This document shows positions 1,826 to 59,293 of a DNA stretch of 64,000 nucleotides, piece by piece. Source of the stretch: Octadecabacter algicola. GTDB lineage: Bacteria; Pseudomonadota; Alphaproteobacteria; Rhodobacterales; Rhodobacteraceae. The notes under the pieces are model-generated. The model was not told where the DNA came from and did no database searches. It saw only the letters and a program-made list of their open reading frames with translations. How positions within the stretch are numbered: position 1 is the first letter of the stretch; each line of letters starts with the position of its first letter. The stretch is taken from positions 930,001 through 994,000 of the forward strand of contig NZ_JAKGAR010000001.1 in assembly GCF_021532625.1 (NCBI RefSeq), in the 5' to 3' direction. The position numbers and the translations under genes were made by a program.

Positions 1826-1828
1826 GAT

Positions 1829-30128: not shown

Positions 30129-31106
30129 TCATTCGACCATATCAGTCGCCAAATCACCCTTGATCGACGCCGGTTGCCCTTTCGCAAGGTTTTGAACCTG
30201 AGCGGGTTTTGGGATGTCGTCCTGCAATTGCATATCTATGATTTCGGTTCGCACAGCGCGTTTTCCGGCCACTTGTCCCAACCGCGCAGAGGCAACGGAC
30301 TCACCGGCGGGACCTGTTAATGTCACAGATCCGACGGTTGCCCCAGCGAGGGTCATCACCTGCCCGACCTCAAAGCGTTCAATCTTACTGATCGGCAAGG
30401 AAAACTTCGTCAAAACTGCGTCTAGATCAACGGACGCTTCTTCGAGAGCAACGCGGAGCTTTGTTGTCCATTCGATCCCTTCATTCTTGGCAGCTGGAGC
30501 TTTTTCCACTTTAGGACGTATCGCGATCAACACTTCACCTTGGTGTTCGCCCCCTGCGATATGGACCGTCACGCGCCACACGCGATAACTCCCCTGAATC
30601 ATCATTAAGCCAGCCGTGCGCAAATCTTCCATTGGGCCGATATCATAGGCTGCCGGATCAATATCATCTTGCCCAAAACCCGTGTCCGCCAGTTCTTTAA
30701 GGAGTTTGTCTGCAAACGGGACCGACATTACTGCATCTGTTCTGGTGACTTTGCGTTGTTCTTTCGCTGGTGGCAGCAGATGCCCCATCGTTTGCATTTC
30801 GACCAAGGCAGACCGCAACGGCGGGTCTATTAAGAATACGCCCGAGAGCCCAGCGCTACCAACATCCCGAAGCCCTAGAACGATCCAGTCCTCTGGCCCG
30901 TCCTCAATCAGGTTTTCGGCTTCGCTGTCCTCAACGGCGACACTGCTGACAGAGGCGGACAGGCCGACCGTTTCATCCAAAGCCCGTGGCAAAGCCCGCC
31001 GCATCTGCCGGACTGGGGAACTTGGCTTTGTTTCTTCGGGTTTGGATGCCGCGTCAGGCGGCGCAAGACCCATTTTTCGGGAGAGAATTGGGTTTATCCC
31101 ATCCAT
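30129..31106 (-). CDS. FliM/FliN C-terminal (SpoA) domain protein
   Basis: A 325-residue protein. The C-terminal region from about residue 235 (DLDAVLTKFSLPISKIERF then VGQVMTLAG and SVTLTGPAGESVASARLGQVAGKRAV, read in pieces) is a SpoA/FliN domain as in flagellar motor-switch proteins. The N-terminal ~220 residues correspond loosely to a FliM-like middle domain (EDWIVLGLRDVGSAGLSG, VEMQTMGHLLP) preceded by a disordered leader. No other flagellar gene is nearby, so it is either a displaced motor-switch paralogue or part of a second switch. The gene follows the kinase operon in the same direction after a 98-base spacer. Confidence 0.8.
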   Translation of the reverse strand: MDGINPILSRKMGLAPPDAASKPEETKPSSPVRQMRRALPRALDETVGLSASVSSVAVEDSEAENLIEDGPEDWIVLGLRDVGSAGLSGVFLIDPPLRSALVEMQTMGHLLPPAKEQRKVTRTDAVMSVPFADKLLKELADTGFGQDDIDPAAYDIGPMEDLRTAGLMMIQGSYRVWRVTVHIAGGEHQGEVLIAIRPKVEKAPAAKNEGIEWTTKLRVALEEASVDLDAVLTKFSLPISKIERFEVGQVMTLAGATVGSVTLTGPAGESVASARLGQVAGKRAVRTEIIDMQLQDDIPKPAQVQNLAKGQPASIKGDLATDMVE

Positions 31107-31204: not shown

Positions 31205-33871
31205 TTAGTCTGTCGGGATCGTAACCCGGAAAGCTGCGCCGCCTTGCCCCGGAAGGTATGCGATCCCACCGCCAATTGCCGTCATAATCTGACGACAAAT
31301 CGCGAGACCAAGCCCCGCACCGCCAGCTTTGCCTTCATCCTCTAAACGTGAGAATTTCTCAAAGATTACCGACTGGCTTTCTTGTGGAACGCCCGTGCCG
31401 TTGTCGCAGAAATCGACTGCCAGTTGGCCGTCCATCGGGCGCACGATGATCCGCAATTCCGGTTCATCCGCATCACAATACTTGGCCACATTGCTGATAA
31501 GGTTGATAAACACCTGTGACAAACGATCCATATCGGTCGACAGCGTTACCGCCTCAGCATTCGCACGCCGAGAGATCGAAACCTTCGTTTCATCAATCCC
31601 CGACGCCAAGACCGCGCGATCAATAACATCCGCCAATGTGCCCTCTCCGATATTGAGCTGCACCTGCCCGCTTTCCAAAACACCCAAATCCAGCAGGTCA
31701 TCAAGCAAGCGCGTTAGGCGATTGGTCTCATCGTGGATGATCCCCGCAAACCGCCGACGTGCATCTCCATCGACTTCGCCATCACGCAGAATATCCGAGA
31801 ATGACCGGATCGAGGTCATAGGGGTTCGCAATTCATGGCTGATCTGACTAAGGAACGCGTCCTTCTGGATCGACAGTGCCGTCAACTTGTCATTGGCTTC
31901 TCGCAAAGCGCGGGCGGTGCGTTCTTGTTCGGCGCTCTTGGCTTCGAGCTGGTTGGAATATTCAACGATTTGCGCGGTTTCATCGGCCACCGCCATAAGG
32001 TCATCAACGGAAACTGTGGCGCCTTCCGTCAGCTGACCGATCATCGCATGCGCCGCCGCCGCCCCAATAGAGCCAGACATTTCGCGTTCCAACTTACCAA
32101 TAAAATCTGGCGTCACGTCCGGCAGAAAACCTGACTTACCCTGCATCTGTGCTTCGGCACGGAAAACCGTCTGAGCTTCGGCGCTCCCCAAGATCCGCTG
32201 GGTCATGACCAGTAAATCTTCGGCTTGGGCTGCAGATTGGGACCAAGCGCGCGCATCGCTCGAGTAGTCGTAGACATTGACAAATTGTGCACCTTGCAGG
32301 CGCTCAAGCGGGTTCGGGAACGTCAAGACGGACACCAGAACCACTGCACCAGAATTCAACAACATCGACCAGAACGCGACATGCACCAACGGATCAATTC
32401 CTTCGATCCCGAATAACGCATGGGGGCGCAGCCAATTGATCCCGAAGGGACCGTTGTCGAACACCGCCTGAGAGATCACCCCATCAATCCCGAAACTCGG
32501 CAGGAACTGCGTCCACGCCCAAACCGCGAACCCAATTGCGATCCCTGCCCCAGCGCCCCAGCGGTTTGCACCCCGCCAAAAGACGCCGCCGATCATTGCC
32601 GGAAGAACTTGCATGATGCCCGTAAAGGACACCAAGCCGATCGCGGCGAGTGCAGTGCCACCACCAGACAAGCGGAAGTATATATATCCCAAGGTCATAA
32701 TGACCCCAATCGCGATGCGTCGCGATGCGACCACCACGCCACGGACGTCACCGCTTACGGCGGCACCCGTCGTGCGGGACGTCAACCAGCTTGGGGCGAC
32801 AATGTGGTTACTGACCATTGTCGCCAACGCCAATGTCGCGACGATCACCATGGAAGTCGCCGAAGAAAAGCCCCCCAAAAACGCGAGGATCGCCAGCCCT
32901 TCTCGTCCCTCGCTAAGGGGCAAAGTGACCACGAAAAGATCGGGGTTTGATCCTTCCGGCATCAGGTCCAACCCAACAACAGCAATGGGAACCACGAAAA
33001 GGCTCATGAGCATCAAATAGGTCGGAAACGCCCAACTTGCTGTTCCCAAGGCCCGCTCGTCTGAGTTCTCAACGACAAGAACCTGAAACATCCGCGGTAA
33101 ACACAGGAATGCAGCACCGGATACAAAGATGAGGCCAATCCAACGGCTTGGGCTTGGAGCCCATTGTGATTGCGCCGACGCGTCGATGAGATCCATCGTC
33201 GCGCCAACACCGCCGGCAACGCCCCAAACCACAAAGATACCGACCGCGATAAGAGCAAAGAGTTTCACCACTGCTTCGACAGCGATGGCCAAAACGATCC
33301 CGTCATGACGTTCATGCGCGTCCAAATTTCGGGTGCCAAACACCACCGTGAAGACGGCCAGACCAATCGCGACCCACATCGCCGCCCCATCCAAATCCCG
33401 CTGGGCCCAAACTTCGCCACTGCCTGCCGCAAATACCGCGATGGATTGAGTAACCGACTGAAGTTGCAACGCAATATAAGGTGTGATGCCGATAATCGCC
33501 AAGACTGTAACCATAACACCCAGCCCAGTTGATTTGCCAAACCGCGATGAGATCAAATCCGCAATAGATGTTAGGCGTTGCGCCCGACCAATCCGCACAA
33601 GTTTACGAACCAACCACCACCAACCGATCATGACCAATGTTGGCCCAAGATAGATTGTCAGGAACTCCAGCCCTGATCTGGCAGCGTAGCCCACAGCACC
33701 GTAAAACGTCCAAGCCGTGCAATAGATGCTGAGTGAAAGTGTATAAATGGCCGACGAACGCAGCCATCCCGTTTTCCCCAATGCCGCCCGCCGTTCAGCC
33801 ACAAAGGCCACAATGAACAGAAACGCAACATAGAGCAGCGAAACGAGGACCAGCAGGTTAAACGAAATCAT
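31205..33871 (-). CDS. Sodium:solute symporter-histidine kinase fusion (CrbS/CbrA-like)
   Basis: An 888-residue membrane sensor. Residues about 1-500 form a SLC5/PutP-like transporter unit of 12-13 helices (start SFNLLVLVSLLYVAFLFI; GFSSATSMVIVATLALATMVSNH is the conserved SSS block). After a linker and a coiled-coil (~625-660) comes a standard kinase: H-box DAFLSQISHELRTPMTSIR, N-box VFINLISNVAKYC, then GAGLGLAICRQI. In CrbS/CbrA sensors the transporter part is thought to monitor a solute flux; CrbS controls acetyl-CoA synthetase genes in Vibrio and Pseudomonas. Unlike those, no PAS or receiver domain is attached; the receiver is a separate protein at 34202. The start overlaps the small membrane-protein gene by four bases. 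Confidence 0.92.
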   Translation of the reverse strand: MISFNLLVLVSLLYVAFLFIVAFVAERRAALGKTGWLRSSAIYTLSLSIYCTAWTFYGAVGYAARSGLEFLTIYLGPTLVMIGWWWLVRKLVRIGRAQRLTSIADLISSRFGKSTGLGVMVTVLAIIGITPYIALQLQSVTQSIAVFAAGSGEVWAQRDLDGAAMWVAIGLAVFTVVFGTRNLDAHERHDGIVLAIAVEAVVKLFALIAVGIFVVWGVAGGVGATMDLIDASAQSQWAPSPSRWIGLIFVSGAAFLCLPRMFQVLVVENSDERALGTASWAFPTYLMLMSLFVVPIAVVGLDLMPEGSNPDLFVVTLPLSEGREGLAILAFLGGFSSATSMVIVATLALATMVSNHIVAPSWLTSRTTGAAVSGDVRGVVVASRRIAIGVIMTLGYIYFRLSGGGTALAAIGLVSFTGIMQVLPAMIGGVFWRGANRWGAGAGIAIGFAVWAWTQFLPSFGIDGVISQAVFDNGPFGINWLRPHALFGIEGIDPLVHVAFWSMLLNSGAVVLVSVLTFPNPLERLQGAQFVNVYDYSSDARAWSQSAAQAEDLLVMTQRILGSAEAQTVFRAEAQMQGKSGFLPDVTPDFIGKLEREMSGSIGAAAAHAMIGQLTEGATVSVDDLMAVADETAQIVEYSNQLEAKSAEQERTARALREANDKLTALSIQKDAFLSQISHELRTPMTSIRSFSDILRDGEVDGDARRRFAGIIHDETNRLTRLLDDLLDLGVLESGQVQLNIGEGTLADVIDRAVLASGIDETKVSISRRANAEAVTLSTDMDRLSQVFINLISNVAKYCDADEPELRIIVRPMDGQLAVDFCDNGTGVPQESQSVIFEKFSRLEDEGKAGGAGLGLAICRQIMTAIGGGIAYLPGQGGAAFRVTIPTD

Positions 33872-34194
33872 TCGCTACCTCTTTCATCGGTGCCTTCATC
33901 CCCGTCAATGGAATCCGAAACCCGCAGGACAAGGTTCAGCACAAACGCCAAGACCGCAAGAATAACCCAAAGCGCAAAGAGATAGATCATGCTGGAACTG
34001 GTCAGGCTTTGATCCAAAGTCTCGCGGGGCCACATCAATGGAAAAACCATAAAGACCGCACCGAACAGCGGCAGCCAACGGGCCGCATCTCGAAATCGGC
34101 GTTGCCGGTAGTTGCTTCGCTCCAGAAACTTGGTCCGCGGTCCCGTTTTGATCGGTGACTTGGGCGGGCTGTCATTGGGCGGAGCTTGCGTCAT
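33868..34194 (-). CDS. Small two-helix membrane protein of the kinase operon
   Basis: A 108-residue protein with a basic N-terminal tail (RTKFLERSNYRQRRFRDA), two membrane helices (about residues 40-56, LPLFGAVFMVFPLMW, and 69-91, IYLFALWVILAVLAFVLNLVL) and an acidic C-terminus. It ends in a four-base overlap with the symporter-kinase gene. Its topology is like that of the small companion subunits (DUF485/DUF4212-type) encoded next to SLC5 acetate or organic-acid symporters, so it may be an accessory subunit of the sensor's transporter domain. That is inference from position and topology. Confidence 0.75.
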   Translation of the reverse strand: MTQAPPNDSPPKSPIKTGPRTKFLERSNYRQRRFRDAARWLPLFGAVFMVFPLMWPRETLDQSLTSSSMIYLFALWVILAVLAFVLNLVLRVSDSIDGDEGTDERGSE

Positions 34195-34201
34195 GATGTG
34201 C

Positions 34202-34570
34202 TTAGGAGCCTGCCAACGCGCGAACGCTTTCTAACACTTCGGCATTTGAAAACGGTTTGGTCATGAATTGCGTCGCCCCAAGGCCAATCGCAAGTTCGCG
34301 ATCCTTGGCCTGCCCCCGTGCGGTCAACATCATAACCGGAGTGTCCTTGGTTTCCGCAGCTGCGCGCAAATCACGCAAGATATCGTAACCGGAGCGGCCT
34401 GGCAGCATGACGTCCAAAATGATCAAGTCAGGGACACCCTGCATAACCTTCTCGATAGCAGTTTCCCCGTCCGAATGGGTATGAACGGTCCAACCATCAC
34501 GGCTCAGAATATAGCTGACGGCCTCAATTATATTTGGCTCGTCTTCAATTAGCAGGACACGTTGCCCCAT
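34202..34570 (-). CDS. Single-domain response regulator (receiver only)
   Basis: A 122-residue receiver protein without an output domain. The acidic pair is in LLIEDEPN, the phospho-acceptor Asp in LIILDVMLPGRSG, Thr in MLTARG and Lys in FMTKPFSN. The ATG at 34570 has a strong GGGGGAGGAAG ribosome site; ten extra in-frame codons upstream do not. It is encoded with the symporter-kinase and is the obvious phosphorylation partner. Without a DNA-binding domain it must act through protein contacts, for instance on the ScfR regulator encoded just upstream or through a phosphorelay. Confidence 0.92.
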   Translation of the reverse strand: MGQRVLLIEDEPNIIEAVSYILSRDGWTVHTHSDGETAIEKVMQGVPDLIILDVMLPGRSGYDILRDLRAAAETKDTPVMMLTARGQAKDRELAIGLGATQFMTKPFSNAEVLESVRALAGS

Positions 34571-34663
34571 ATAGCTTCCTCCCCCAAAAGCGACGAACAC
34601 CTCCCCAGTGTTCGCATATAACTATCGCGGGTTGAGGCCATAGTGTCAAAGGCAGGATGCCGT

Positions 34664-35944
34664 TTATCCCTTAGGTTGCACCACACTAGGCTGCCGGCGA
34701 CTGGTACAGCCCTCAACGGTGCAAATTCTACAGCCAGGGCCTACAGGGTTTGGCGCCTCATCGCTCTGGGCGGGGCGAACCAACATTGTCGCCTCAATCC
34801 GCGGAGGCACCCCGAAAGCGACCGGCCCCACGGGGGCTGCAATCGAGAAACATTCAAAGGTCGTTCGCGCGGCTCCACTCATACGAGCTACACTTCGCAA
34901 TGCGTGACCCGGTTGAGAGAGCGCTTGGAACAGCGGCCACAAAGGACATGCCGACCCCGCACGTGGCAACCGGAAATCCAGAATGGGTTTTTGGAACGTA
35001 ATGACCCCTGCGCTATCACACCTGACCAACCCCATAGGAGGAACCGCTGCCGACGCCGGAAGCTGCGCCAATCTCCGCAAGATTAACTCAACAGGCACAT
35101 CAAACCGCGCCGCCAATCGCGCAGGGTCAAAGGCCATTTGCTCTGCAGCAGGGCTAAACTGTGCAAGCGGCAATCTAGCGGCGTCAGCGATGTAATCCCG
35201 TGCCCAGCCCGAAGCAATTTCACCTGCGACGCCATCGACACCGTCCGGCCAATCGGGTTCATCTCCGTTTTCACACTCGGGAAAATGAAACCCACGCGCA
35301 GCAAAAAGGGCTTCTGCCTGCTCGACGACGGTCGAGACGTCCGATGGGTCACCGCCGGTTTCGATATCCAGTAACCCCAGCAATGCCTGCGAACTTTCGG
35401 CCAATCGGGCACTGTCGGTGTCAATGTTGGTGTGGAACCTGCCTTGCCATTCTGAATCTAGATCAGGGGTTTCAACCAAGATTGATGCGGTTGATCGAAT
35501 AGCCGTCGCCGTGGAGATGACCTCGTGCAGGGACGTCGCGATTTTGGTGTCATGGGCCAGACGGTTTGCCAAAGCGTCGACTTTGGCCGTGAGCCGCTCG
35601 ATATGGGCCTGTTGCGAATTGATGACCCCTGCCCACCCCGGAAATCGCGATGCAAACTCTTCTGCACTTTCGGCCCCGACGGCCAGACTAGGAAACTCTA
35701 CCGCCGCTACCTTTAGGGGCGTGATCACGGATGCGGATGTCTCGTCTTCGAGCTGTGCCTGATCAATTTCAAGGACCCGAGCAAGCCCCCCCAAAAGCTT
35801 ACCGCCGATTCTGCGGCGATTGTGTTCAATAAGGTTTAAGTAGGATCCAGAAATCCCAACTCGCTCGGCAACTGCGGATTGTCGAAGCCCCAAATCCAGT
35901 CTGCGATTTCGAACACGAGTGCCTGTAAGTATGCGATCCGCCAT
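34664..35944 (-). CDS. ScfR/RamB-type short-chain fatty acyl-CoA-responsive regulator
   Basis: A 426-residue regulator. The N-terminal XRE helix-turn-helix reads RRLDLGLRQSAVAERVGIS then YLNLIEHNRRRIG; the long C-terminal part is the DUF2083-type domain ending in a Cys-rich motif, GPGCRICTVEGCTSRRQP. This is the family of RamB, PccR and MccR, which sense short-chain acyl-CoA esters and control acetate and propionate assimilation. It heads the minus-strand regulator operon and faces the ABC importer/acs operon. Two TTTACAAA boxes in the 215-base divergent region resemble the TTTGCAAA target described for the family. Confidence 0.9.
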   Translation of the reverse strand: MADRILTGTRVRNRRLDLGLRQSAVAERVGISGSYLNLIEHNRRRIGGKLLGGLARVLEIDQAQLEDETSASVITPLKVAAVEFPSLAVGAESAEEFASRFPGWAGVINSQQAHIERLTAKVDALANRLAHDTKIATSLHEVISTATAIRSTASILVETPDLDSEWQGRFHTNIDTDSARLAESSQALLGLLDIETGGDPSDVSTVVEQAEALFAARGFHFPECENGDEPDWPDGVDGVAGEIASGWARDYIADAARLPLAQFSPAAEQMAFDPARLAARFDVPVELILRRLAQLPASAAVPPMGLVRCDSAGVITFQKPILDFRLPRAGSACPLWPLFQALSQPGHALRSVARMSGAARTTFECFSIAAPVGPVAFGVPPRIEATMLVRPAQSDEAPNPVGPGCRICTVEGCTSRRQPSVVQPKG

Positions 35945-35995
35945 TAAGAATCCTTTAGTGTTTTCATCAGCATGCTGCAGCGCATTGACAAGATA

Positions 35996-36035
35996 TTTAC
36001 AAAATACCGCAATGCAGCGTCGAAGTCTTTACAAA
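35996..36035. promoter_or_regulatory. Paired TTTACAAA boxes, candidate ScfR operator
   Basis: TTTACAAA occurs at 35996-36003 and again at 36028-36035, 32 bases apart (three helical turns), between the ScfR-type regulator gene and the importer operon. It differs by one base from the TTTGCAAA half-site known for RamB/PccR-type regulators. The spacing would put two dimers on the same DNA face. Confidence 0.5.
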
Positions 36036-36159
36036 AATAACCTTTCTCGTAGAGGCCTTGTTGTGAAATTTTCTAATCCCCCCTCTAATGATCACGCTAC
36101 TAAAAGCACGTGCGGATCTAGCTGGGAGGCTTTCCGCATTTCTCTAGGGAGGATACTAT

Positions 36160-37509
36160 ATGTCCAAATCAAACTTCACACGTCGTGGTGTGCTTAAGAC
36201 TGGTGCCGTTGCTGGCGCTGGCATGGCGCTTCCACAATACTTGCGCGCTCAAGAGTCCGGCTTCACGAACGCGCCTGGCGCAAGCGAAGTCACATTCGGC
36301 TTCAACGTTCCACAAACTGGTCCATACGCGGACGAGGGTGCGGACGAACTTCGCGCATACGAACTTGCTGTTGAGCACATCAACGGCGGTGGCGACGGCG
36401 GCATGCTGAACACGTTCAGCTCCAAGGCGCTCGACGGCACAGGCATTTTGGGCCGTGAGCTCAAGTATGTAACTGGCGACACACAGACCAAATCCGACGC
36501 GGCGCGCGCATCTGCACGTTCCATGATCGAAAAAGACGGCGCAATCATGATTACTGGCGGGTCTTCCTCCGGTGTGGCTGTTGCTGTTCAGGCTCTGTGT
36601 CAAGAAGCTGGCGTCATCTTCATGGCTGGCCTTACACACTCCAACGACACAACTGGTAAAGACCGTAAAGCGAACGGTTTCCGCCACTTCTTCAACTCCT
36701 ACATGACCGGCGCTGCTCTCGCGCCAGTTCTTGCAGCTCAGTATGGCACAGACCGTAAGGCCTATCACCTGACAGCTGACTACAACTGGGGTTACACAAC
36801 AGAAGAAGCCATCCGCGCATCTACAGAAGCTGTTGGTTGGGAAACTGTAAACTCTGTCAAAACACCACTGACACAGACAGACTTCTCCTCCTACATCGCA
36901 CCTGTTCTGAACTCAGGTGCTGACGTTCTGGTTCTGAACCACTACGGCGGGAACATGGTCAACTCTTTGACTTCTGCTGTTCAGTTCGGTCTTCGTGAAG
37001 CTCAGGCCAATGGCCAAAACTTCGAAATCGTTGTTCCACTGTTCTCTCGTTTGATGGCACGTGGTGCCGGTGAAAACATCAAGGGTATCCTTGGTTCCAC
37101 TGGCTGGCACTGGTCCCTGCAGGATGAAGGTTCCCAAGCGTTCGTTCGTTCCTTCGGTACTAAGTACGGCTTCCCACCATCCCAGGCTGCACACACATGC
37201 TACGTACAGACACTTCTGTATGCAGATGCTGTTACACGTGCTGGCTCTTTCGCACCTTGTGCGGTTGCTGAAGCTCTCGAAGACTTTGAATTCGACGGCA
37301 TGGGCAACGGTAAGACACTTTACCGTGGCGCAGACCACCAGTGCTTCAAAGACGTGCTCGTTGTGAAGGGTAAAGAGAACCCAGAGTCCGAGTTCGACCT
37401 TCTTGAGATCGTCGAAGTCACACCTGTTGATCAGGTTATGTACGAGCCAGATCACCCACAGATGGGCGGCGCTGAAGCCACCCTCGGTGAGTGTAACAAC
37501 GGCGCGTAA
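36160..37509 (+). CDS. HAAT-family ABC importer substrate-binding protein (Tat-exported)
   Basis: A 449-residue periplasmic binding protein of the LivJ/UrtA/AmiC class. It has a twin-arginine signal (NFTRRGVLKTGAVAG), unusual for this class, cleaved near LRAQE. The fold entry VTFGFNVPQTGPYADEG and ITGGSSSGVAVAVQALC, followed by HLTADYNWGY, are of the type-1 PBP kind. It shares more with amide/urea binders than with LivJ. Codon use is strongly biased to a few codons, which suggests very high expression. It is the first gene of an importer operon and is followed by a strong hairpin. Context (ScfR, acs) suggests a short-chain carboxylate or a precursor as ligand. Confidence 0.88.
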   Translation: MSKSNFTRRGVLKTGAVAGAGMALPQYLRAQESGFTNAPGASEVTFGFNVPQTGPYADEGADELRAYELAVEHINGGGDGGMLNTFSSKALDGTGILGRELKYVTGDTQTKSDAARASARSMIEKDGAIMITGGSSSGVAVAVQALCQEAGVIFMAGLTHSNDTTGKDRKANGFRHFFNSYMTGAALAPVLAAQYGTDRKAYHLTADYNWGYTTEEAIRASTEAVGWETVNSVKTPLTQTDFSSYIAPVLNSGADVLVLNHYGGNMVNSLTSAVQFGLREAQANGQNFEIVVPLFSRLMARGAGENIKGILGSTGWHWSLQDEGSQAFVRSFGTKYGFPPSQAAHTCYVQTLLYADAVTRAGSFAPCAVAEALEDFEFDGMGNGKTLYRGADHQCFKDVLVVKGKENPESEFDLLEIVEVTPVDQVMYEPDHPQMGGAEATLGECNNGA

Positions 37510-37531
37510 GCGACTGTTCTCAAAACACTTC

Positions 37532-37557
37532 GGATGCGCGGCTTTGGTCGCGCATCC
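37532..37557 (+). terminator. Strong intercistronic hairpin after the binding-protein gene
   Basis: GGATGCGCG and CGCGCATCC form a perfect 9-bp stem around an eight-base loop, 22 bases after the stop codon. There is no T-run, so read-through to the permease genes is expected while the upstream message is stabilised. Confidence 0.6.
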
Positions 37558-37611
37558 ACACCAAAACGTTGCACCCCCCTTTCCTATTTCTCCTGAACCG
37601 AGGCGCCGTCC

Positions 37612-38643
37612 ATGGACCAGATCATCGTTCAAATTCTCAACGGTCTAGACAAGGGCTCCGCTTATGCGCTGATTGCTCTTGGTCTGACCCTCATTTTCGG
37701 CACGCTCGGTGTTGTGAACTTTGCGCACGGCGCGTTGTTCATGCTGGGCTCTTTCTGTGCCGTTATCCTGTCACGTCTTTTGTCATCGTCGCACGAAGTT
37801 GCCGATCCTGACCGCCTGGACTTTCTGGGCAATCCCGCGATGAACAAAGTGTTCTACGTCCAAGACATTTTTGGTGAAGCCGCCGGCGCCGCCATTATGG
37901 ACTGGGCTGTGCCTTTGGCGATCCTGTTCTCTATTCCGGTTATGATCGGTGTCGGGTTCATCATGGAACGCGGCTTGATCAAGCACTTCTACAAGCGCCC
38001 ACACGCGGATCAGATCCTTGTGACCTTCGGCCTTGCCATCGTTTTGCAGGAAATCATCAAGTACTTCTTCGGAGCAAACCCGATCCAGACCCCTGCCCCT
38101 GAGGCGTTCAAAGGCTCTTTGGATTTCGGTGTGTTCCTTGGCTACGAAGCCAACGCGATCATGTATCCGTACTGGCGCTTGGTCTACTTCTTCTTCTCCG
38201 CTGTTATCATCGCCGCTGTGTTCGCTTTCTTGCAGTTCACCACCTTCGGGATGGTTGTGCGTGCCGGTATGGCTGACCGTGAGACAGTTGGCCTTCTGGG
38301 CATCGACATCGACAAACGCTTTACATTCATGTTCGGCCTTGCAGCCGCGGTCGCAGGTGTTGCCGGTGTTATGTACGCGCCTATTGTTGCTCCAAACTAC
38401 CATATGGGCATGGACTTCTTGGTTCTCAGCTTTGTTGTGGTGGTTGTGGGCGGCATGGGCTCGCTGCCTGGTGCTGTTGCTGCAGGCTTCCTGCTCGGCA
38501 TTCTGGAAAGCTTTGCCTCGATGCCCGTCGTCGTCGATATCCTTCCAGGTATCAACCAAATCATCATCTACCTTGTCGCAATCGTTATCTTGTTGACCCG
38601 CCCTCGTGGCCTGATGGGTCGCAAAGGCGTGATGGAGGACTAA
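37612..38643 (+). CDS. ABC importer permease, LivH family
   Basis: A 343-residue inner-membrane permease. The opening [20 protein letters not shown] then [14 protein letters not shown] is the LivH hallmark, and the EAA-like region [24 protein letters not shown] (in two halves) is conserved. An insertion of about 40 residues between helices two and three ([16 protein letters not shown]) is longer than in E. coli LivH. Second gene of the operon, four bases before the LivM-type permease. Confidence 0.92.
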
Positions 38644-38647
38644 ACCC

Positions 38648-39841
38648 ATGCTCGGACTAACTAAACAAGACAGCAAACTTATGCTGATCGTCATCGGGCT
38701 TGTCGTTTTCGCGCCCTTTATTCTCAACCCCTTCCCTGAAGGTTCTGCTATGGCGCAGTTCAACGCGGGTTACCCCGACTTGATGCAGCGTTTCGTGATC
38801 TTCGGTATCTTTGCGATTGGGTTTAACCTGCTGTTCGGCCTCACTGGCTACCTCAGCTTTGGACACGCCGCTTTTCTGGGTGTCGGTTCCTACGCAGCGA
38901 TCTGGTCGCTGAAGCTGATTACCCTGAACGTTCTTCCAGGGATCGTCTTTGCGATCATCGTTGCAGGTGCCTTTAGCTTTGTGGTCGGCTATGTGTCACT
39001 GCGCCGCTCGGGTATCTACTTCTCGATCCTGACATTGGCTTTTGCGCAGATGTCTTATGCCCTCGCCTACTCCGTTCTGACGCCTATCACCGGTGGTGAA
39101 ACAGGCCTTCAGATCAAGAACACCGACAATCCTTTGATTGGTGGACCTACAGATGGCAGCATCGGCCGCGCGAACCTTTTCGGGGCTGAGATGGGCAATT
39201 CGTTTGAGCTCAACATCGGCAGCTGGTTGTTCACATTCAACCTTGGTTACTACATCGCCGCTGCCTTTATGCTGGTCGCGTTCTACCTGAGTATCCGTAT
39301 CTTCCGCTCCCCTTTCGGGATCATGCTGCGGGCTGTTAAGTCCAACCAGCAACGGATGAACTACACGGGTCTGACGCCAAAGCGCTACACGCTCTCCGCG
39401 TTTGTCATCTCCGGCATGTTTGCTGGTTTGGCGGGTGGCCTGATGGTTGCGATGGATACCCAAGTTGGCCCAGAACGCATGTTCTGGACAGCCTCCGGTG
39501 AGGTCGTGATCATGACCATCCTTGGCGGTGCTGGTACTCTGCTAGGTCCAGTTCTCGGCGCGGGTTTCATCAAGTACATGGAAAACATCGTGTCCAAGAT
39601 CAACAAAGACATCCTGCACGAATGGTTCGCCTTCATGCCTGATGGTCTTGAAGATGCGATGGTTGCCTTTGTCTATCCGTTCATCGGTAAAGGCTGGCAC
39701 CTGACACTTGGCATCATGTTCATGTTGGTCGTGATCTTCCTTCCTGGTGGTCTCGTAGAAGGTGGTCAACGTATCGCCGCTAAGTTCCGCCGCACCAAAA
39801 ACGCTGAAACGCCTGACGGCGCCAGCAAGCCCGCAGAATAA
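38648..39841 (+). CDS. ABC importer permease, LivM family
   Basis: A 397-residue inner-membrane permease paired with the LivH-type protein. The family patch [39 protein letters not shown] and [18 protein letters not shown] are all present, with about ten hydrophobic helices. The tail is charged and extends beyond LivM ([16 protein letters not shown]). Twelve bases separate it from the first ATPase gene. Confidence 0.92.
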
Positions 39842-39853
39842 GGAGCCGAAACA

Positions 39854-40612
39854 ATGGCACTACTTTCAGTAAAAGGCGTGAACAAACGCTTCGGTGGTCT
39901 GCAAGCCCTTGGTGATGTGAACCTTGATGTTGCAGAAAACACCTGCCACGCAATTATCGGCCCGAATGGGGCCGGTAAATCCACCCTCCTCAACGTGTTG
40001 GTTGGTAAATTGATCCCAGATTCCGGTTCGGTCGTGTTTGACGGGCAGTCGGTTCTGGGGCGCAAGCCGCACGAAATCAACCAGATGGGCATCAGCCGCG
40101 TTTTCCAAACACCTGAGATCTTCGCGGACCTCAGCGTTATGGAAAACATGTTGATCCCGTGCTTTGCGAAACGTGATGGTGCATTCCGTATGCATGCCAT
40201 CGAAAGCGTTCGTCACGAATCCGACATGATCGAAAAAGCCGAAGCCATGTTGGACGAAGTGAAAATGCTCGATAAGCGCGAGATGACCGCATCGTCCATG
40301 TCCCGTGGTGACAAACGTCGCCTCGAGATGGCCATGTGTCTGGTGCAGGAACCTCGCCTACTGTTGCTCGATGAACCAACAGCCGGCATGGCCCGTGCAG
40401 ATACGGAAAACACGATTGAGTTGCTGAAAACGATCCGTAAGGAACGTGGTGTGACAATGGCGATCATCGAACACGACATGAACGTTGTGTTCTCTTTGGC
40501 GGAGCGGATCACTGTTCTTGCCCAAGGTACGCCACTGGTCGAAGACACGCCAGACAACATCAAAGGTCACCCAAAAGTCCGCGAAGCCTACCTTGGCGAA
40601 GCGCAGGTCTAA
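39854..40612 (+). CDS. ABC importer ATP-binding protein, LivG family
   Basis: A 252-residue ATPase. Walker A GPNGAGKSTLLN, signature MSRGDKRRLEMAM and Walker B LLLLDEPTAGMARADT, with the switch His in MAIIEHDMN, are intact. The signature begins S-R-G-D rather than the usual S-G-G/Y-G, a small departure. It shares the operon with a second ATPase (LivF type), forming the heterodimer expected for HAAT importers. Confidence 0.92.
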   Translation: MALLSVKGVNKRFGGLQALGDVNLDVAENTCHAIIGPNGAGKSTLLNVLVGKLIPDSGSVVFDGQSVLGRKPHEINQMGISRVFQTPEIFADLSVMENMLIPCFAKRDGAFRMHAIESVRHESDMIEKAEAMLDEVKMLDKREMTASSMSRGDKRRLEMAMCLVQEPRLLLLDEPTAGMARADTENTIELLKTIRKERGVTMAIIEHDMNVVFSLAERITVLAQGTPLVEDTPDNIKGHPKVREAYLGEAQV

Positions 40613-40621
40613 GGAATTATT

Positions 40622-41395
40622 ATGACACACGTTGAACATCTGGACGCCGAAGGCTCCTTTAACAAAAACCGGAATATGGCTGCGACTGCTCCTAAATTCC
40701 TTAGCGTTTGGGACATCGAAGCTTACTACGGCGAAAGCTACATCGTTCAGGGCGTTAGCTTTGATATCCACGAAGGCGAAATTCTCGCCCTACTGGGCCG
40801 CAACGGTGCGGGCAAAACATCCACTTTGCGCACAATCGCACGAATGGATGATCCCCAACTGAAGCACGGTGAGATCTGGCTGGACCACAAACCACTTCAC
40901 GAGATGCGGTCACACGAAGCATCGCAGGCTGGTATTCAGCTGGTGCCGGAAGATCGTAACATTATTCCCGGTCTGACCGTGGAAGAGAACCTCAAGCTGG
41001 CGCAAATCGCACCACCTAAGGGTTGGTCTTTGGACCGCGTTTACGACCTGTTCCCGCGCCTTAAAGAACGCCGCAGTCAAGAAGGCGTGACGCTTTCTGG
41101 TGGTGAACAACAGATGCTTGCCATCGCTCGGGCCCTATGCCGGGACATCAAAGTTCTGCTTCTGGATGAACCATACGAGGGCCTCGCCCCTGTTATCGTT
41201 CAGGAAATTGCCAAAACACTGGAACTGATCCGCGACCAAGGTATCACAACAGTGATCGTTGAGCAGAACGCCGTTGCCGCGCTTAAGCTGGCTGACCGCG
41301 CTGTGATCCTCGACATTGGTAAGGTCGTCTATGACGGCTCTGCAAAAGAAGTGCTCGAAGACGAAGCTCTTCGCTCCAAGTACCTCGCTATCTGA
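40622..41395 (+). CDS. ABC importer ATP-binding protein, LivF family
   Basis: A 257-residue ATPase, last of the five importer genes. A 25-residue leader not seen in LivF precedes the domain, which starts FLSVWDIEAYYGESYIVQG. Walker A GRNGAGKTSTLR, signature LSGGEQQMLAIARAL and Walker B VLLLDEPYEGLAP are canonical; the E-G-L-A-P ending is LivF-specific. The ATG at 40622 has a GGAATTATT spacer; a start at the second Met (residue 19) would remove the leader. Confidence 0.92.
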   Translation: MTHVEHLDAEGSFNKNRNMAATAPKFLSVWDIEAYYGESYIVQGVSFDIHEGEILALLGRNGAGKTSTLRTIARMDDPQLKHGEIWLDHKPLHEMRSHEASQAGIQLVPEDRNIIPGLTVEENLKLAQIAPPKGWSLDRVYDLFPRLKERRSQEGVTLSGGEQQMLAIARALCRDIKVLLLDEPYEGLAPVIVQEIAKTLELIRDQGITTVIVEQNAVAALKLADRAVILDIGKVVYDGSAKEVLEDEALRSKYLAI

Positions 41396-41399
41396 TCAT

Positions 41400-41426
41400 A
41401 TTGCGGGGTCACCTTGGCCCCGCAAT
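41400..41426 (+). terminator. Hairpin closing the importer operon
   Basis: ATTGCGGGG and CCCCGCAAT form a perfect 9-bp stem around TCACCTTGG a few bases after the LivF-type stop codon. No T-run follows, so transcription may partly continue into acs; phased repeats begin three bases later. Confidence 0.55.
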
Positions 41427-41428
41427 TA

Positions 41429-41472
41429 CCATACCGTACCCATATGGTTTCCATATGCATTCCATACGGGTT
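41429..41472. promoter_or_regulatory. Four phased 11-bp direct repeats upstream of acs
   Basis: Four consecutive 11-base units each start with CCATA: CCATACCGTAC, CCATATGGTTT, CCATATGCATT and CCATACGGGTT, at 41429, 41440, 41451 and 41462; a weaker fifth unit (CCCTATTGCTC) follows. The spacing is about one helical turn, so the units face the same side of the DNA. Units two and three also form the palindrome CATATGG-TTT-CCATATG. The array lies 32 bases before the acs start codon and is a strong candidate for cooperative regulator binding. Confidence 0.6.
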
Positions 41473-41503
41473 CCCTATTGCTCTTTCGACCTAAGGAACG
41501 CCC

Positions 41504-43453
41504 ATGTCAAAGACCTACCCCCCCACCGCAGAAGTTGCCAAACGCGCCCATATCGACGCTGCTGGCTATGCTGAAATGTATGCTAAGTCAGTGTCCGACC
41601 CAGAAGGGTTCTGGGGTGAGCACGGCAAGCGTATTGACTGGATCAAGCCCTACACCAAGGTAAAGAATACGTCCTTTGAGCCGGGCAATATCGATATCAA
41701 ATGGTTTGAAGACGGCACGCTGAACGTCAGCGCCAACTGCGTGGACCGCCACGTTGCGACTCGTGGTGATCAGACGGCGATCATCTGGGAACCGGATGAT
41801 CCAAACACAACAGAATCCATGCACATCACATATGCTGAACTTCAAGTTCACGTTTGTAAGATGGCAAATATCCTTCAGGAATTGGGCGTAGGCAAAGGCG
41901 ACCGTGTTGTCCTTTATCTCCCGATGATCCCAGAAGCCGCCTACGCCATGTTGGCCTGTGCGCGGATCGGTGCGATCCACTCAATCGTTTTCGCTGGCTT
42001 TTCGGCAGACGCGCTTGGCGCACGGATCAACGGATCTGACGCCAAAGTTGTCATTACGGCTGACCACGCGCCACGTGGTGGTCGCTCTACCCCATTGAAA
42101 TCTAACTGTGATACGGCACTGCTGCATTGCAAAGAGAGCGTCAAATGTCTTGTTGTGAAACGCACCGGTGAGCAGACCACATGGACCGATCGTGACTATA
42201 GCTACAATGACATGTTGCTTGAGGCTGACGACTACCAAAAACCAGAAGAGATGAACGCAGAAGACCCGCTGTTCATTCTATATACGTCTGGTTCTACAGG
42301 TCAGCCAAAGGGTGTTGTTCACACGACGGGTGGATACCTCGTTTATGCGGCGATGACGCAGCAATACACGTTTGATTATCACGACGGCGACATTTTCTGG
42401 TGTACCGCTGACGTTGGTTGGGTCACCGGACACAGCTACATCGTGTACGGTCCACTGGCGAACGGTGCGACAACGATCATGTTTGAAGGTGTTCCAACTT
42501 ACCCTGACGCGGGTCGTTTCTGGGAAGTTTGTGCCAAGCATAAGGTCAACCAGTTTTACACGGCGCCGACAGCTATTCGCGCCCTGATGGGCGCTGGTAA
42601 CGACTGGGTTGAAAAGCATGACTTGTCCGACCTGCGCATTCTTGGGTCCGTGGGTGAACCGATCAACCCTGAAGCTTGGAACTGGTACAACGAAGTGGTT
42701 GGCAAAGGAAACTGCCCGATTGTGGATACCTTCTGGCAAACAGAAACAGGCGGTCACATGCTGACCCCCCTCCCCGGAGCAACAACATTGAAGCCGGGTG
42801 CCGCACAGCAACCATTCTTCGGAGTTCAGCCCGTGGTTCTGGACCCACAATCTGGCGTCGAAATCGAAGGCAACGGCGTCGAAGGCGTTCTTTGCATCAA
42901 AGACAGCTGGCCGGGCCAAATGCGGACCGTCTACGGCGACCATGAACGCTTTGAGAAAACGTACTTCGGCGATTACGCTGGCTACTACTTCTCTGGGGAC
43001 GGCTGCAAACGTGACGAAGATGGCGATTACTGGGTCACGGGCCGCGTGGATGACGTGATCAACGTATCCGGTCACCGCATGGGCACCGCAGAAGTCGAAT
43101 CTGCTCTTGTGGCGCACGTCAAAGTCGCCGAAGCCGCCGTTGTTGGCTATCCGCACGACATCAAAGGCCAAGGCATCTACGCTTACGTCACTTTGATGAA
43201 CGGCGAAGAACCAACTCCAGAACTGCGCAAGGAGCTCGAGGTTTGGGTTCGTTCCGAGATTGGCCCAATCGCAAAACCAGACCTGATCCAATGGGCCCCC
43301 GGATTGCCAAAGACCCGTTCAGGCAAAATCATGCGCCGAATCTTGCGCAAGATTGCAGAAGACGACTTTGGTGCCTTGGGGGATACATCCACATTGGCGG
43401 ATCCGTCGGTTGTGGATGATCTGATCGAAAACCGGATGAATAAATCCGACTAA
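41504..43453 (+). CDS. acs: AMP-forming acetyl-CoA synthetase
   Basis: A 649-residue enzyme converting acetate, ATP and CoA to acetyl-CoA, in the cytosol. Length and motifs are those of Acs: the P-loop [26 protein letters not shown], the [12 protein letters not shown] acetyl-pocket segment including the conserved Trp, the hinge region [15 protein letters not shown], and the C-terminal [11 protein letters not shown] with the catalytic, acetylation-prone Lys. The Trp in the W-Q-T-E-T-G segment favours acetate over longer acids. It has its own AAGGA ribosome site and follows the importer operon after a hairpin and a set of phased repeats; a good terminator ends it. Confidence 0.96.
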
Positions 43454-51134: not shown

Positions 51135-52304
51135 CTATGGCTCGCGCAGCGCCTCCTGAGAGCGGTACAGCGGCTTGGTCAGATATTGCAGAACGGTCTT
51201 GGAACCGGTGTGCAATTCCACGTTTGCCTGCATGCCCGGACGGACTTCGATCTGTGATTCACGTGGCCCCAGATCTGTTGTGTCCACACGCAACGTTACG
51301 CGGTAGTGCGGCGGTGCGTTGGGGTCGCGTTCATCTTCAAACGTATCCGCAGAAATCAGGTAAACCTCAGCCGACAGAGTGCCATAAATCGTGTAGTCAT
51401 AAGCGCTTAGCTTAATCGTTGCCGCCTGCCCCGGGATAACATTGGCAATATTAGATGGGGACACTTCGGCTTCTACGAACAGCTCGTCATCCAGCGGGAT
51501 GATCTGGAAAATCTCTTCGCCGGGTCGAATAACACCACCGATTGTTGTCACGCCAAGGTTGTTGACGATCCCACGCATTGGGCTTGTGATGATCGTGCGA
51601 TCCAATCGGTCTTCTGCAACACGCAGGTCTTGGCGCAGCGTCGCAAGGACAGACAGCACTTCGGAATGTTCAGACGCGCGATCGAGTTCCGCACGGGTGA
51701 CGATTTCGTTATAAGTGTTAAGGGCGTCAGAGTTCGCCTTGCGGGCGCGGGTGACCTCGATCAGGGCTGCGATGTCACGGTTGTACAAATCTTCCATCAC
51801 GCCGAGTTCGCGGCGGGTTTCAGTGACAATCGCTTGCGCGCCTTCTGTGCGGCTAACGTAGTCGGACTGACGGGCGTTCAACAGCGCACGTTCACTGGCC
51901 ACCATATCGGGGCTAAAGGATGCGATGGCCTCAGGCACTTCAAAATCAAACATGCCGCTGATTTCTGCATCAAGACGCAGGCGGCGAATTTCGGCTGCTA
52001 TCACTTGTTCGCGCAGATCTGTCACCGAAGTCTCAAACTGTGTGCCACGCAGACGCGCCAGCACATCGCCCGGCTCAACGGAGTCGCCCTCGGCAACCAG
52101 AAGTTCAGCCAAGATACCGCCTTCGAGGTTTTGAATGATCTGCGGGCGGGAGGCAGAAACAATCGACCCATTGGCCCGAACGATTTCATCGATGGATGCA
52201 AATTTTGCCCAAAGGATAAACACCAGAACGGTTACACCGATCAGCCAGATCAGCAGGCTAGGACCACGTGCACGGCTTTCGAATTCGTCGGTAAAGGTAA
52301 CCAT
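51135..52304 (-). CDS. Type I secretion membrane-fusion protein (HlyD/LapC-like)
   Basis: A 389-residue periplasmic adaptor that links the inner-membrane ABC exporter to the outer-membrane TolC channel. One N-terminal helix (LLIWLIGVTVLVFILWA) is followed by a lipoyl/barrel-sandwich half (IIQNLEGGILAELLVAEGD), a long helical hairpin (~90-240) and the C-terminal half with MRGIVNNLGVTTIGGVIRPG. It is the last gene of a four-gene operon and overlaps the ABC gene stop by one base (TGATG). Confidence 0.93.
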   Translation of the reverse strand: MVTFTDEFESRARGPSLLIWLIGVTVLVFILWAKFASIDEIVRANGSIVSASRPQIIQNLEGGILAELLVAEGDSVEPGDVLARLRGTQFETSVTDLREQVIAAEIRRLRLDAEISGMFDFEVPEAIASFSPDMVASERALLNARQSDYVSRTEGAQAIVTETRRELGVMEDLYNRDIAALIEVTRARKANSDALNTYNEIVTRAELDRASEHSEVLSVLATLRQDLRVAEDRLDRTIITSPMRGIVNNLGVTTIGGVIRPGEEIFQIIPLDDELFVEAEVSPSNIANVIPGQAATIKLSAYDYTIYGTLSAEVYLISADTFEDERDPNAPPHYRVTLRVDTTDLGPRESQIEVRPGMQANVELHTGSKTVLQYLTKPLYRSQEALREP

Positions 52305-54598
52305 CAGGCGCTCGCTTTCTTATTGTTTTTCTGCAAGTGCGCCAGCACTTCTTGACGGGGGCCATCCACAGCCAAACGGCCGTTCTGCAGGATGACAGTA
52401 CGCTGTGTAAGTTCGAGGATCGGAACACGGTGTGTCGCGATGATCGCGGTGCGCCCTTTCAGCCATGTTTCAAGACGGCTAACCAAGGTCGCCTCAAGCG
52501 TTTGGTCCAGAGCCGCTGTTGGTTCGTCCAACAGGCATACTTTTGGGTCCTGCAACCAAAGCCGCGCCCAACCGATGGATTGACGCTGACCAATGGAAAG
52601 ACCTTCGCCGCCATCAGAAATCTCAAGGTCCAGCCCTTTGGGGTGGTTGCGAACAAACTGACCAAGGCCCGCAAAATCAAGCGCCGCCAACAGGCGGTCA
52701 TCATCGCGTTCCAGCAAAGTCAGGTTCAGGTTTTCGCGCAGCGTGCCAGAGAACAGGCGCACTTCTTGGCTAAGGTAGCCAATCGAACGGCGCAGATCGC
52801 GCGGCATCACCTGCCCCATATCAACGCCATCAATCAGAACACGACCTTTGGTCGGACGGTAAATACCAGACAACAATTTCAACATCGTTGACTTGCCGGA
52901 CCCGTTGGACCCAAGCACAGCAATATGCTGACCCGGTTCGATCTTGAGGCCCGGAATATCCAGTGTCTGGCCGCTGTCTTCGTTGTAACAAAACGCGATG
53001 TCGCGCAGCTCAAAGCCGCCCTTCATGGTTTCACGACGTAGATATGTGCGGTCTTCTTCTTGGTCTTGTTCAGCGTCGGCGATTTCGCCCAATGCTTCGA
53101 GCGCGGCTTTGACGTTGGACCAACGCGCCAATGTCGCGGCCAGTTGGGTCAATGGACCAAGGGTACGGCTGGTCAATATGCCGACGGCGATGATCGTACC
53201 GACGGTGAACTCACCTGTGAACACCATGAACGTCCCAGCAACTACCGCGGCAACATAGGTCGCCTGCTGAACGCCTTGCGCCCAAAATGTCAGTGTGCTG
53301 GCCAGTTTACGTTGCTCGGACGTCGCAAGAGAGGACACAGCGGATAGTTCCGTCCAAAGACGGCGGAACCGATCTTCGCCGCGTTGTGCTTTGATCGTGT
53401 CGGCTTCGTAAATGACTTCGTGAAGCAGTTTGTTGGATTTGGCACTTGCCCCTTGGGTCTGGTGAGTCAGCGCGATCATCTTCTTTTGCAAGAAGAAGCT
53501 CGGCAGAACCATCAGCGTTCCGCCGATAAACAGAACCCAGACAACATTGCCGCCAATGGACGCCACAAGTGCCAAGAACAGAACAATAAAGGGCAAATCT
53601 GTTAGTGTGCCGATGGTGGACGCGGTAAAGAATTCCCGCACGGAACCGAATTCGCGCACAGCGGAAAACAGACCGGACGGCGTTTGGCCCTCTTTGCCGC
53701 GACGCATCCCCAAAAGGCGGTCCATCAACAGGCTTTGCACCTGCAATTCAATCTTGCGCCCTGCCCCGTCCATCAGACGGGCACGGGCAATCCGCAGACC
53801 CGCTTCAAGCAACATCGCAAGGCCAGCACCAATCGCCAGCACCCAAAGGGTGGCGGTGGACTGGTGTGGAATAACGCGGTCATAGACCTGCAAGGAAAAT
53901 AGCGCGACGGCGACAGCCAAAAGGTTTGCCACGAACGATCCCAGAGCGATCTCGAGAAGGTGGCGGCGGAACTGGAGCATCTCGCCCCAAAACCAATGCG
54001 CTTTGTTGCCTTTGCGGGCGTGTTTCGCGGCCAAGTCTTTAACGGCCATGTCGGCACGCAGGATCAAGCCGCTGAAATGTGGCATGAATTCTGTCAGGCT
54101 GACTTCGGCGCGGTTGTCTTTGCATGTGGTGTCGAACACGATGAACGTGTCGTCTGTTTGATCCAAGATCAACAAGATCTGACCGCTGGTCATCTCTACC
54201 AAAGCGGGCCACTGATCCGGTGTTGGTTTGGCGTCCAACGCCACGGACGTCACCATGCCAGCCTCTTTGAGGGCCTTGGCGATGGCGCGCGGTGTAATGT
54301 CGTCACCGTCTTCGGTGGTCATCACCTCAAGAAGGTCAGAACGCACGATATCCACGCCCAAAAGTCCAGCGTAGGTCGCGGCTAGATCGGCACGTGACTT
54401 GGCTTTGTCGCTGTAGCGGTCATCGCCAGTTGACGTTGGGGCTGCAATAGCCCGTTCGACTTGTTCTACTTCGGCTCGGATCGGTAATTCGACGTTAGAG
54501 GCAGGTGCCGCATCGGTCTCTGCTTCTGGCTTGGCGACGCGGGTCAACTTGCCGCCACGGGTGGCGTTAATATCGAATGCAAGGACCGGACCGCTCAT
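52304..54598 (-). CDS. Type I secretion ABC exporter with degenerate C39 domain (LapB-like)
   Basis: A 764-residue exporter. The N-terminal ~200 residues correspond to a peptidase-C39-like domain without the catalytic Cys (the region DRYSDKAKSRADLAATYAG lacks it), so it would bind rather than cleave the substrate, as in RTX and adhesin exporters. Five to six helices follow (~215-480), then the ATPase domain: Walker A GSNGSGKSTMLK, signature GLSIGQRQS, Walker B VCLLDEPTAALDQ and the switch His in IATHR. It sits between TolC- and HlyD-type genes and the upstream giant-repeat adhesin, its likely cargo. Confidence 0.93.
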   Translation of the reverse strand: MSGPVLAFDINATRGGKLTRVAKPEAETDAAPASNVELPIRAEVEQVERAIAAPTSTGDDRYSDKAKSRADLAATYAGLLGVDIVRSDLLEVMTTEDGDDITPRAIAKALKEAGMVTSVALDAKPTPDQWPALVEMTSGQILLILDQTDDTFIVFDTTCKDNRAEVSLTEFMPHFSGLILRADMAVKDLAAKHARKGNKAHWFWGEMLQFRRHLLEIALGSFVANLLAVAVALFSLQVYDRVIPHQSTATLWVLAIGAGLAMLLEAGLRIARARLMDGAGRKIELQVQSLLMDRLLGMRRGKEGQTPSGLFSAVREFGSVREFFTASTIGTLTDLPFIVLFLALVASIGGNVVWVLFIGGTLMVLPSFFLQKKMIALTHQTQGASAKSNKLLHEVIYEADTIKAQRGEDRFRRLWTELSAVSSLATSEQRKLASTLTFWAQGVQQATYVAAVVAGTFMVFTGEFTVGTIIAVGILTSRTLGPLTQLAATLARWSNVKAALEALGEIADAEQDQEEDRTYLRRETMKGGFELRDIAFCYNEDSGQTLDIPGLKIEPGQHIAVLGSNGSGKSTMLKLLSGIYRPTKGRVLIDGVDMGQVMPRDLRRSIGYLSQEVRLFSGTLRENLNLTLLERDDDRLLAALDFAGLGQFVRNHPKGLDLEISDGGEGLSIGQRQSIGWARLWLQDPKVCLLDEPTAALDQTLEATLVSRLETWLKGRTAIIATHRVPILELTQRTVILQNGRLAVDGPRQEVLAHLQKNNKKASA

Positions 54599-55935: not shown

Positions 55936-55959
55936 TCAATACCCCAGTTCGCTTATATT

Positions 55960-55996: not shown

Positions 55997-56036
55997 GTGT
56001 CGTGCGCCCTCCCCTACCGCGAGGAGAGCGTGGGTC

Positions 56037-59204: not shown

Positions 59205-59293
59205 GGTACTCACTCCGCCTCATGTTCACGGCTTTTTTGCCGCGTTATATACATTGCAGATACCATATGTTGATTTCTTAACTATTTCTAGGG

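Follow-up and report, generated by a model that had tools for sequence, protein, structure and literature searches.

We examined a 64,000-nt stretch of the Octadecabacter algicola genome (hereafter the window, to which all positions refer), in which four regulatory genes, among them those of an SLC5/STAC-type sensor histidine kinase and an ScfR-type transcription regulator, face the five genes of an ABC importer of the HAAT class and the acetyl-CoA synthetase gene acs. An earlier note, made from the sequence alone, had read this locus as one for the sensing, import and activation of short-chain acids. Our analyses indicate that it is probably a conserved high-affinity acetate module, in which a two-box operator common to importer and acs ties the two together, and in which the regulator appears, from its sequence, to carry a signalling domain of the histidine-kinase type.

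Gene content of the locus

The ten open reading frames of the locus and the families previously assigned to them were confirmed by the open reading frame list and by searches with Pfam and NCBIfam (Table 1); searches of the own genome covered the 3.45-Mb assembly, in which the window lies on contig C7. Pfam did not report the SLC5 part of the kinase, which was found by a profile search against solved structures, where positions 3-612 match 10ed_A at 9e-88; 10ED is the SLC5-STAC structure of CbrXA (PMC13022988). Together with its HisKA and HATPase_c domains, this match gives the kinase the SLC5-STAC-kinase fusion typical of CrbS. The two-helix protein, whose hydropathy peaks near residues 37 (1.45) and 69 (2.52), has no match in Pfam or NCBIfam and no similarity to E. 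coli YjcH in hhalign, and is a possible partner of the kinase SLC5 domain. The lone receiver, which might alternatively start at the ATG at 34570, keeps D20, D63 and K115 in 84/84 relatives. The Acs protein is 64% identical to that of E. coli, and the own genome holds one further Acs match at E<=1e-60, 40% identical.

Table 1. Features of the locus, with positions in the window
Feature	Position	Strand	Remarks
SLC5/STAC-type sensor histidine kinase	31205..33871	-	888 aa; HisKA + HATPase_c (Pfam); phospho-acceptor H679
Two-helix small protein	33868..34194	-	Two hydrophobic stretches, one clear, the other weaker
Single-domain response regulator without output domain	34202..34600	-	Response_reg 94.9 bits (Pfam)
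ScfR-type transcription regulator with putative embedded DHp domain	34664..35944	-	426 aa; HTH_3 + ScfRs
Putative DHp region of the regulator, residues 102-195	35360..35641	-	Coiled coil followed by a helical hairpin of DHp type, which holds H140
Two-box operator TTTACA-N26-TTTACAAA	35996..36035	+	Upstream of the binding-protein gene
HAAT periplasmic binding protein	36160..37509	+	Peripla_BP_6 231.8 bits; Tat-type signal
HAAT permease 1	37612..38643	+	BPD_transp_2 (Pfam)
HAAT permease 2	38648..39841	+	BPD_transp_2 (Pfam)
HAAT ATPase 1	39854..40612	+	ABC_tran + BCA_ABC_TP_C (Pfam)
HAAT ATPase 2	40622..41395	+	ABC_tran (Pfam)
Acetyl-CoA synthetase Acs	41504..43453	+	TIGR02188 (acetate-CoA ligase) 1008 bits, cut-off 724.95

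Conservation of the gene block

Three samples were compared: the 80 best binding-protein loci, picked by similarity from 505; an even sample of 121 Rhodobacterales genomes, each at least 90% complete; and a class-wide sample of 144 genomes, searched with a regulator profile at 1e-30. Genes at these loci were called with a codon-scored gene caller, which splits some genes, including the window's own regulator. In 74 of the 80 best loci, regulator and importer (the binding protein and both permeases) point away from each other, and kinase and receiver are present as well; the six that lack part of the block either lie at contig ends (L039, L065, L071) or hold an importer without the regulator (L034, L038, L055). 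The window's binding protein is 97% identical to a protein of Octadecabacter sp. B2R22.

In the even sample, the binding protein occurs in 83 genomes and the full regulator in 117, a count that includes the regulator of genome G005, found as two split matches (C6:175599-176979). Of the 83 genomes with a binding protein, 74 have the two as divergent neighbours and nine have them apart, and in a further 34 genomes the regulator occurs but the importer does not; the adjacency of the two is not a matter of chance. Class-wide, 21/144 genomes match the regulator profile, 18 of them outside the own family, and in 15 of these 18 loci the importer again lies divergent to the regulator, with an SLC5-type kinase nearby in 13. 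In two of these 15 (genomes G152 and G259; loci L230 and L241) importer, acs, receiver and kinase form one run. At the remaining three of the 18 (L227, L231, L232) the importer is missing, and kinase, receiver and regulator are all present. The grouping proposed in the earlier note holds for regulator and importer, both across Rhodobacterales and beyond them; the place it gave to acs is less general.

Indeed, at E<=1e-230 we found 129 acs copies in 109 of the 121 genomes (two copies in 20 of them), of which 29 lie directly behind the importer, three are divergent from the regulator and 97 stand elsewhere. That only 29 of the 83 importer-bearing genomes have acs directly behind the importer weighs against reading the locus as a single module, as does the occurrence of importers without a nearby regulator (L215, L216 and L218, besides the three named above).

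Several observations concern the flanks of the block. At 16 of the 80 loci (L007, L012, L013, L015, L019, L021, L023, L024, L025, L027, L029, L042, L048, L058, L059, L067) the contig stops within 360 bp past the last importer gene, in several inside acs, as would be seen if these genomes carried near-identical repeats of acs. At seven loci (L086, L087, L089, L090, L092, L107, L109) a regulator without importer is followed by relatives of biotin carboxyl carrier protein and biotin carboxylase (c13, c12), which in the window also stand behind acs; this arrangement would fit an insertion of importer and acs between the regulator and these genes, or a loss of both from there. Other importer-less regulator loci have an ABC operon (c26-c20-c20) in its place. 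On the far side, a FliMN_C-type protein (30129-31106, minus strand) adjoins the kinase; it has relatives in 73/121 loci of a first clustering and no obvious link to acetate.

A two-box operator shared by importer and acs

The region between regulator and importer contains two TTTACA-type boxes 32 bp apart: over 75 such intergenes, 97 pair counts fall at a spacing of 32, the next most frequent spacing being 42 with 15, and the exact operator sites end 115-163 bp ahead of the binding-protein gene. A box profile was trained on 74 of the 75 intergenes (one training site scores -12.5) and read at two marks, -7.9, the maximum of 120 shuffles, and zero. Seven of the nine relocated importers were scored, and all seven exceeded all 21 shuffles. 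Among the 97 stand-alone acs copies, 40 were scored (in list order from the first 60, second copies per genome left out): 31 promoters pass -7.9, 28 of these in the gene's direction, and 20 exceed zero, compared with 8/400 and 0/400 for control regions upstream of other genes, which are richer in GC (0.60 vs 0.54). Counted as exact pairs, the boxes at stand-alone acs are spaced by 31-33 in 18 cases, and this spacing is not one of the most frequent in the 400 controls. Where acs lies behind the importer, none of 31 copies passes the mark over the same 661-bp span, and at loci without importer only 3/29 regulator upstream regions do so. In importer-less genomes, all eight acs promoters scored pass it, six in the gene's direction. 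Outside the family, 11/16 regulator-importer intergenes exceed every one of 160 shuffles, which none of three importers without a nearby regulator does.

Whole genomes were searched with the exact pattern TTTACA-N25..27-TTTACARA, with the reversed pattern as control. The 121 genomes gave 92 matches, in 73 genomes, against 10 for the reversed pattern. Counting only the 400 bp ahead of each gene, 56 matches fall to the importer and 24 to acs, 79 of the 80 being oriented with the gene; together, upstream regions of this kind cover about 85 kb out of about 484 Mb. Of the other twelve, eight precede acs genes missed by the first acs search, mostly cut by contig ends, so that 88/92 matches precede either importer (56) or acs (32); four precede neither, one of them in the own genome. 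Because exact matches stand before importer or acs genome-wide, the importer is tied to acs independently of gene order.

Three results on the operator count against the module reading. Scores at 3/7 relocated importers reach only -2.4 to 1.1; two of the three acs genes divergent from the regulator were scored and are weak (L111 and L124, -15.6 and -14.1); and a looser two-hexamer pattern shows no enrichment in the own genome (27 matches vs 40 reversed). On balance, importer and acs are very probably co-regulated. The shared operator is a point absent from the earlier note. Its geometry matches that of RamB of Paracoccus, described as binding two near-identical boxes separated by an 18-bp spacer, in an 80-bp fragment that extends 17 bp beyond the boxes at either end (PMC10370305), dimensions which by our arithmetic imply 14-bp boxes and a period of 32 bp, as found here.

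Domain structure of the regulator

The C-terminal half of the regulator matches PrpR (6cyj) at 6.6e-29, and the cysteines of a CX2CX4C motif at 405-413 (C405, C408, C413) are each kept in 74/75 Rhodobacterales and 19/19 other relatives. These features, with an XRE-type helix-turn-helix (HTH) and a ScfRs domain (PF09856) of 53.2 bits against a cut-off of 24, place the protein in the ScfR family. Between the HTH and the C-terminal half, an AlphaFold2 model (predicted local distance difference test, pLDDT, 85.7) has a coiled coil (102-131) and a helical hairpin (133-158/164-195). When 94 regulators were aligned by hhalign with 87 kinases, this region matched the DHp domain (probability 98.7, 4e-16), and the HTH, the regulator C-terminal half and the kinase catalytic part gave no match in the same comparison; with the Rhodobacterales regulators alone, the values were 67% and 5e-5. 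HisKA was found at E<=0.1 in 10/20 members of regulator set A4 (best 1e-9), and in one relative (L232) residues 132-196 match histidine-kinase structures at 1.3e-5, with residues 207-518 matching PrpR at 7e-75. H140, aligned with the phospho-acceptor histidine, is kept in 75/75 Rhodobacterales and 16/19 others (91/94 overall).

As judged from profile similarity, the aligned histidine and the predicted hairpin, the regulator thus holds a histidine-kinase-type DHp domain, which the earlier note did not mention. Some results point the other way: Pfam's HisKA is found in only 2/49 Rhodobacterales regulators (set A1, best 0.098), a fold search of the regulator returned PrpR and HTH proteins and no kinase among the 50 matches listed, and three of the 19 relatives from outside Rhodobacterales have F, F and Q in place of H140, two of them belonging to the loci with acs in the run. 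Since the regulator has no catalytic kinase domain, its probable partner is the lone receiver, for which the DHp domain is the likely output, and it is fairly likely that the domain acts as a signal input to the regulator. Our literature search, which covered few subscription papers, found no earlier description of an ScfR regulator that carries a DHp domain.

The earlier note, which gives short-chain acyl-CoA as the signal of ScfR/RamB regulators, had implied that it is sensed here too. In PrpR the CoA pocket includes H319, R338 and K347 (PMC6765138). Their equivalents are kept in 16, 18 and 17 of the 19 relatives outside Rhodobacterales and mostly lost within them; the window's regulator has R290, R308 and F317 at these sites, only one of the three being kept, and this R308 is rare in the lineage. 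Likewise, the IrrE-like segment spans 92-105 residues in Rhodobacterales vs 126-180 in the others, and the window's regulator lacks a full-length segment of this kind. Because both the contact residues and the length of this segment are mostly lost, acyl-CoA sensing is doubtful in Rhodobacterales, in which, to judge from these alignments, the relay input seems to have been kept and the CoA input lost. The own genome encodes a second ScfR protein (C8:795739), and in most of the 121 genomes the regulator profile also gives a second, partial match.

The importer and its ligand

The Tat signal previously proposed for the binding protein is supported: a twin arginine occurs within the first 15 residues of 104/107 binding proteins, and the TAT_signal score (21.6 bits) falls just under its cut-off of 22.7. 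None of the five importer proteins reaches the cut-off of the NCBIfam Urt and Liv models, the binding protein scoring 55.7 bits with the UrtA model (cut-off 492.75). Its closest solved structures (4maa, 3n0w, 3i09) carry titles that name no ligand, and more distant ones are urea-, aromatic-acid-, amide- and amino-acid-binding proteins. The model of the binding protein is only fair (pLDDT 72.8). When the pocket was compared with that of LivJ, LIVBP Glu226 had no clear counterpart in the binding protein, the alignment being unreliable at that loop. The neighbours of relocated importers (11 sequences; L106, L108, L110, L112, L118), judged by eye, showed no common substrate theme.

Other acetate carriers were sought in two families. 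An ActP-type symporter occurs in 3/121 genomes at 1e-50, none above the curated cut-off; all three belong to the 38 genomes without the importer (chance about 0.03), and one of them, G115, has a box-bearing acs with the ActP-type gene beginning 1.2 kb after it. The SatP family is found in 2/121 genomes. Both of these also have the importer, which counts against the module reading, as do the ligands named in titles of HAAT-type structures, namely amino acids, urea, amides or aromatic acids. Nevertheless, since importer and acs are the near-exclusive targets of the operator, the substrate of the importer is probably that of Acs, and we regard acetate as its reasonably likely ligand. The earlier suggestion of acetate or another short carboxylate stands in this form, as a best guess favoured by the conservation of the block and by the operator shared with acs.

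No published account of an acetate HAAT importer was found in our search, within the coverage given above. A 2024 paper lists acetate among the Ruegeria pomeroyi transporters with confirmed substrates, the gene not being named in the part available (PMC11374999), and acetate does not appear in Table 1 of a screen that it cites (PMC10130141); that transporter could be this importer or another carrier.

Proposed mechanism and alternative explanations

A mechanism consistent with these data would run as follows. The SLC5/STAC kinase, of which the two-helix protein is perhaps a subunit, would, by analogy with its family, detect external acetate or its entry and phosphorylate the lone receiver, whose key residues are intact. 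The receiver would pass the signal to the regulator, either by docking on the DHp domain or by phosphorylating H140. The regulator would then bind both TTTACA boxes, spaced about 32 bp, and activate the divergent HAAT operon together with acs; the importer would use ATP to take up acetate, or a short carboxylate very like it, and Acs, whose family is evident from its sequence, would turn it into acetyl-CoA. In its widest form, this account would have roseobacters and many other alphaproteobacteria take up acetate through a HAAT importer switched together with acs by a relay from kinase to receiver to DHp-bearing ScfR regulator, with acyl-CoA and phosphorelay inputs united in one chain outside Rhodobacterales and the CoA input lost within them; we consider the case for this whole chain about evenly balanced.

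Alternatively, the importer might carry a compound that yields acetate or acetyl-CoA, such as pyruvate, propionate, acetoacetate or an acetyl compound, acs being co-regulated for the acetate released. The diversity of ligands in the titles of HAAT-type structures would allow this, and kinases of this type are linked to pyruvate: RpuS/R controls a pyruvate symporter (PMC9100948) and MxtR/ErdR also affects pyruvate use (PMC9927547). It is harder to reconcile with an operator almost confined to importer and acs (88/92 exact matches) and present at acs even in importer-less genomes (8/8 promoters), and we hold this explanation to be possible, though improbable. That an ordinary urea, amide or branched-chain amino-acid importer came to lie near acs by chance, in a passive neighbourhood, seems very unlikely: the subunits do resemble the UrtBCDE/LivHMGF family models most, below cut-off, but the window contains a separate urea-type HAAT system (593-5289, minus strand, a Peripla_BP_5 binding protein of 511 bits with two BPD_transp_2 permeases), and the operator is kept at 7/7 relocated importers and shared with unlinked acs genes.

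The assignment of the boxes to the regulator has a competitor of its own, namely that another factor of acetate metabolism binds them and the regulator block controls something else. Both the scarcity of boxes upstream of the regulator in importer-less loci (3/29) and the additional ScfR proteins, in the own genome and as partial matches in most of the 121, would fit. We judge it unlikely, however, as the boxes are arranged like those of an ScfR-family site (PMC10370305), and outside the family, too, the boxes lie between regulator and importer (11/16) and are missing from three importers without a nearby regulator. Control by the regulator, with acetate as the substrate, remains our preferred reading.

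Elsewhere in the window, a large repeat protein with BapA_N, Big_13 and Big_6 domains (51135-59213, minus strand) has HlyD, ABC exporter and outer-membrane efflux genes as neighbours and resembles a type I secreted adhesin cluster.

Significance

Acetate is a carbon source widely shared in the sea. Two known families of acetate carrier are rare among the 121 genomes (ActP-type in 3, SatP in 2, these being the two families searched), and the importer would fill this gap. If the assignment is true, it would be a marker for acetate uptake in sea-water transcriptomes, in which such importer genes tend to carry branched-chain amino-acid transporter labels. Furthermore, the regulator suggests a new way of coupling an orphan receiver to DNA, through a DHp domain within a transcription factor. 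The parts of the system are of known kinds, i.e. an SLC5/STAC acetate switch, an ScfR regulator, a HAAT importer and Acs; as far as the searched literature suggests, the DHp-bearing ScfR output and the use of an ABC importer as acetate carrier are new.

Comparison with known systems

A close parallel is CrbS/CrbR (MxtR/ErdR), which likewise has an SLC5/STAC sensor kinase; it controls acs for acetate use (PMC5715377, PMC9100948, PMC9927547), as the window's system, with the operator common to importer and acs, may do. CrbS is a hybrid kinase, whereas the window's kinase has no receiver (HATPase_c extends to residue 887 of 888), the receiver being a separate gene; CrbR is a LuxR-type regulator, whereas here the receiver has no output domain and the DNA-binding protein is of the XRE/ScfR type with a predicted DHp domain; and the second target of CrbS/CrbR is ActP, whose place would be taken here by an ABC importer. 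In CbrX-CbrA, a small two-helix peptide encoded beside the kinase is bound to it (PMC13022988), and the window resembles that system both in the SLC5-STAC fold of the kinase and in the small two-helix protein gene adjoining it. CbrA, however, responds to histidine and acts with CbrB, and the likeness of the window's small protein to CbrX is one of gene position and two-helix form only.

With the ScfR family (PrpR, RamB, PccR) the regulator has in common the XRE-type HTH, the C-terminal ScfRs domain, the CX2CX4C motif and a two-box operator with a period of 32 bp, and it differs in the putative DHp domain between the HTH and the sensor core as well as, in Rhodobacterales, in the shorter IrrE-like segment and the loss of most CoA-contact residues. 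Pden_1785 is mentioned as belonging to the ScfR network and clustering with two-component genes; it is not one of the three members studied further there (PMC10370305). The importer, finally, corresponds to LivJHMGF and UrtABCDE in its five-gene composition and in the families of its subunits, but it falls below the Urt and Liv cut-offs and, unlike them, has its operator in common with acs.

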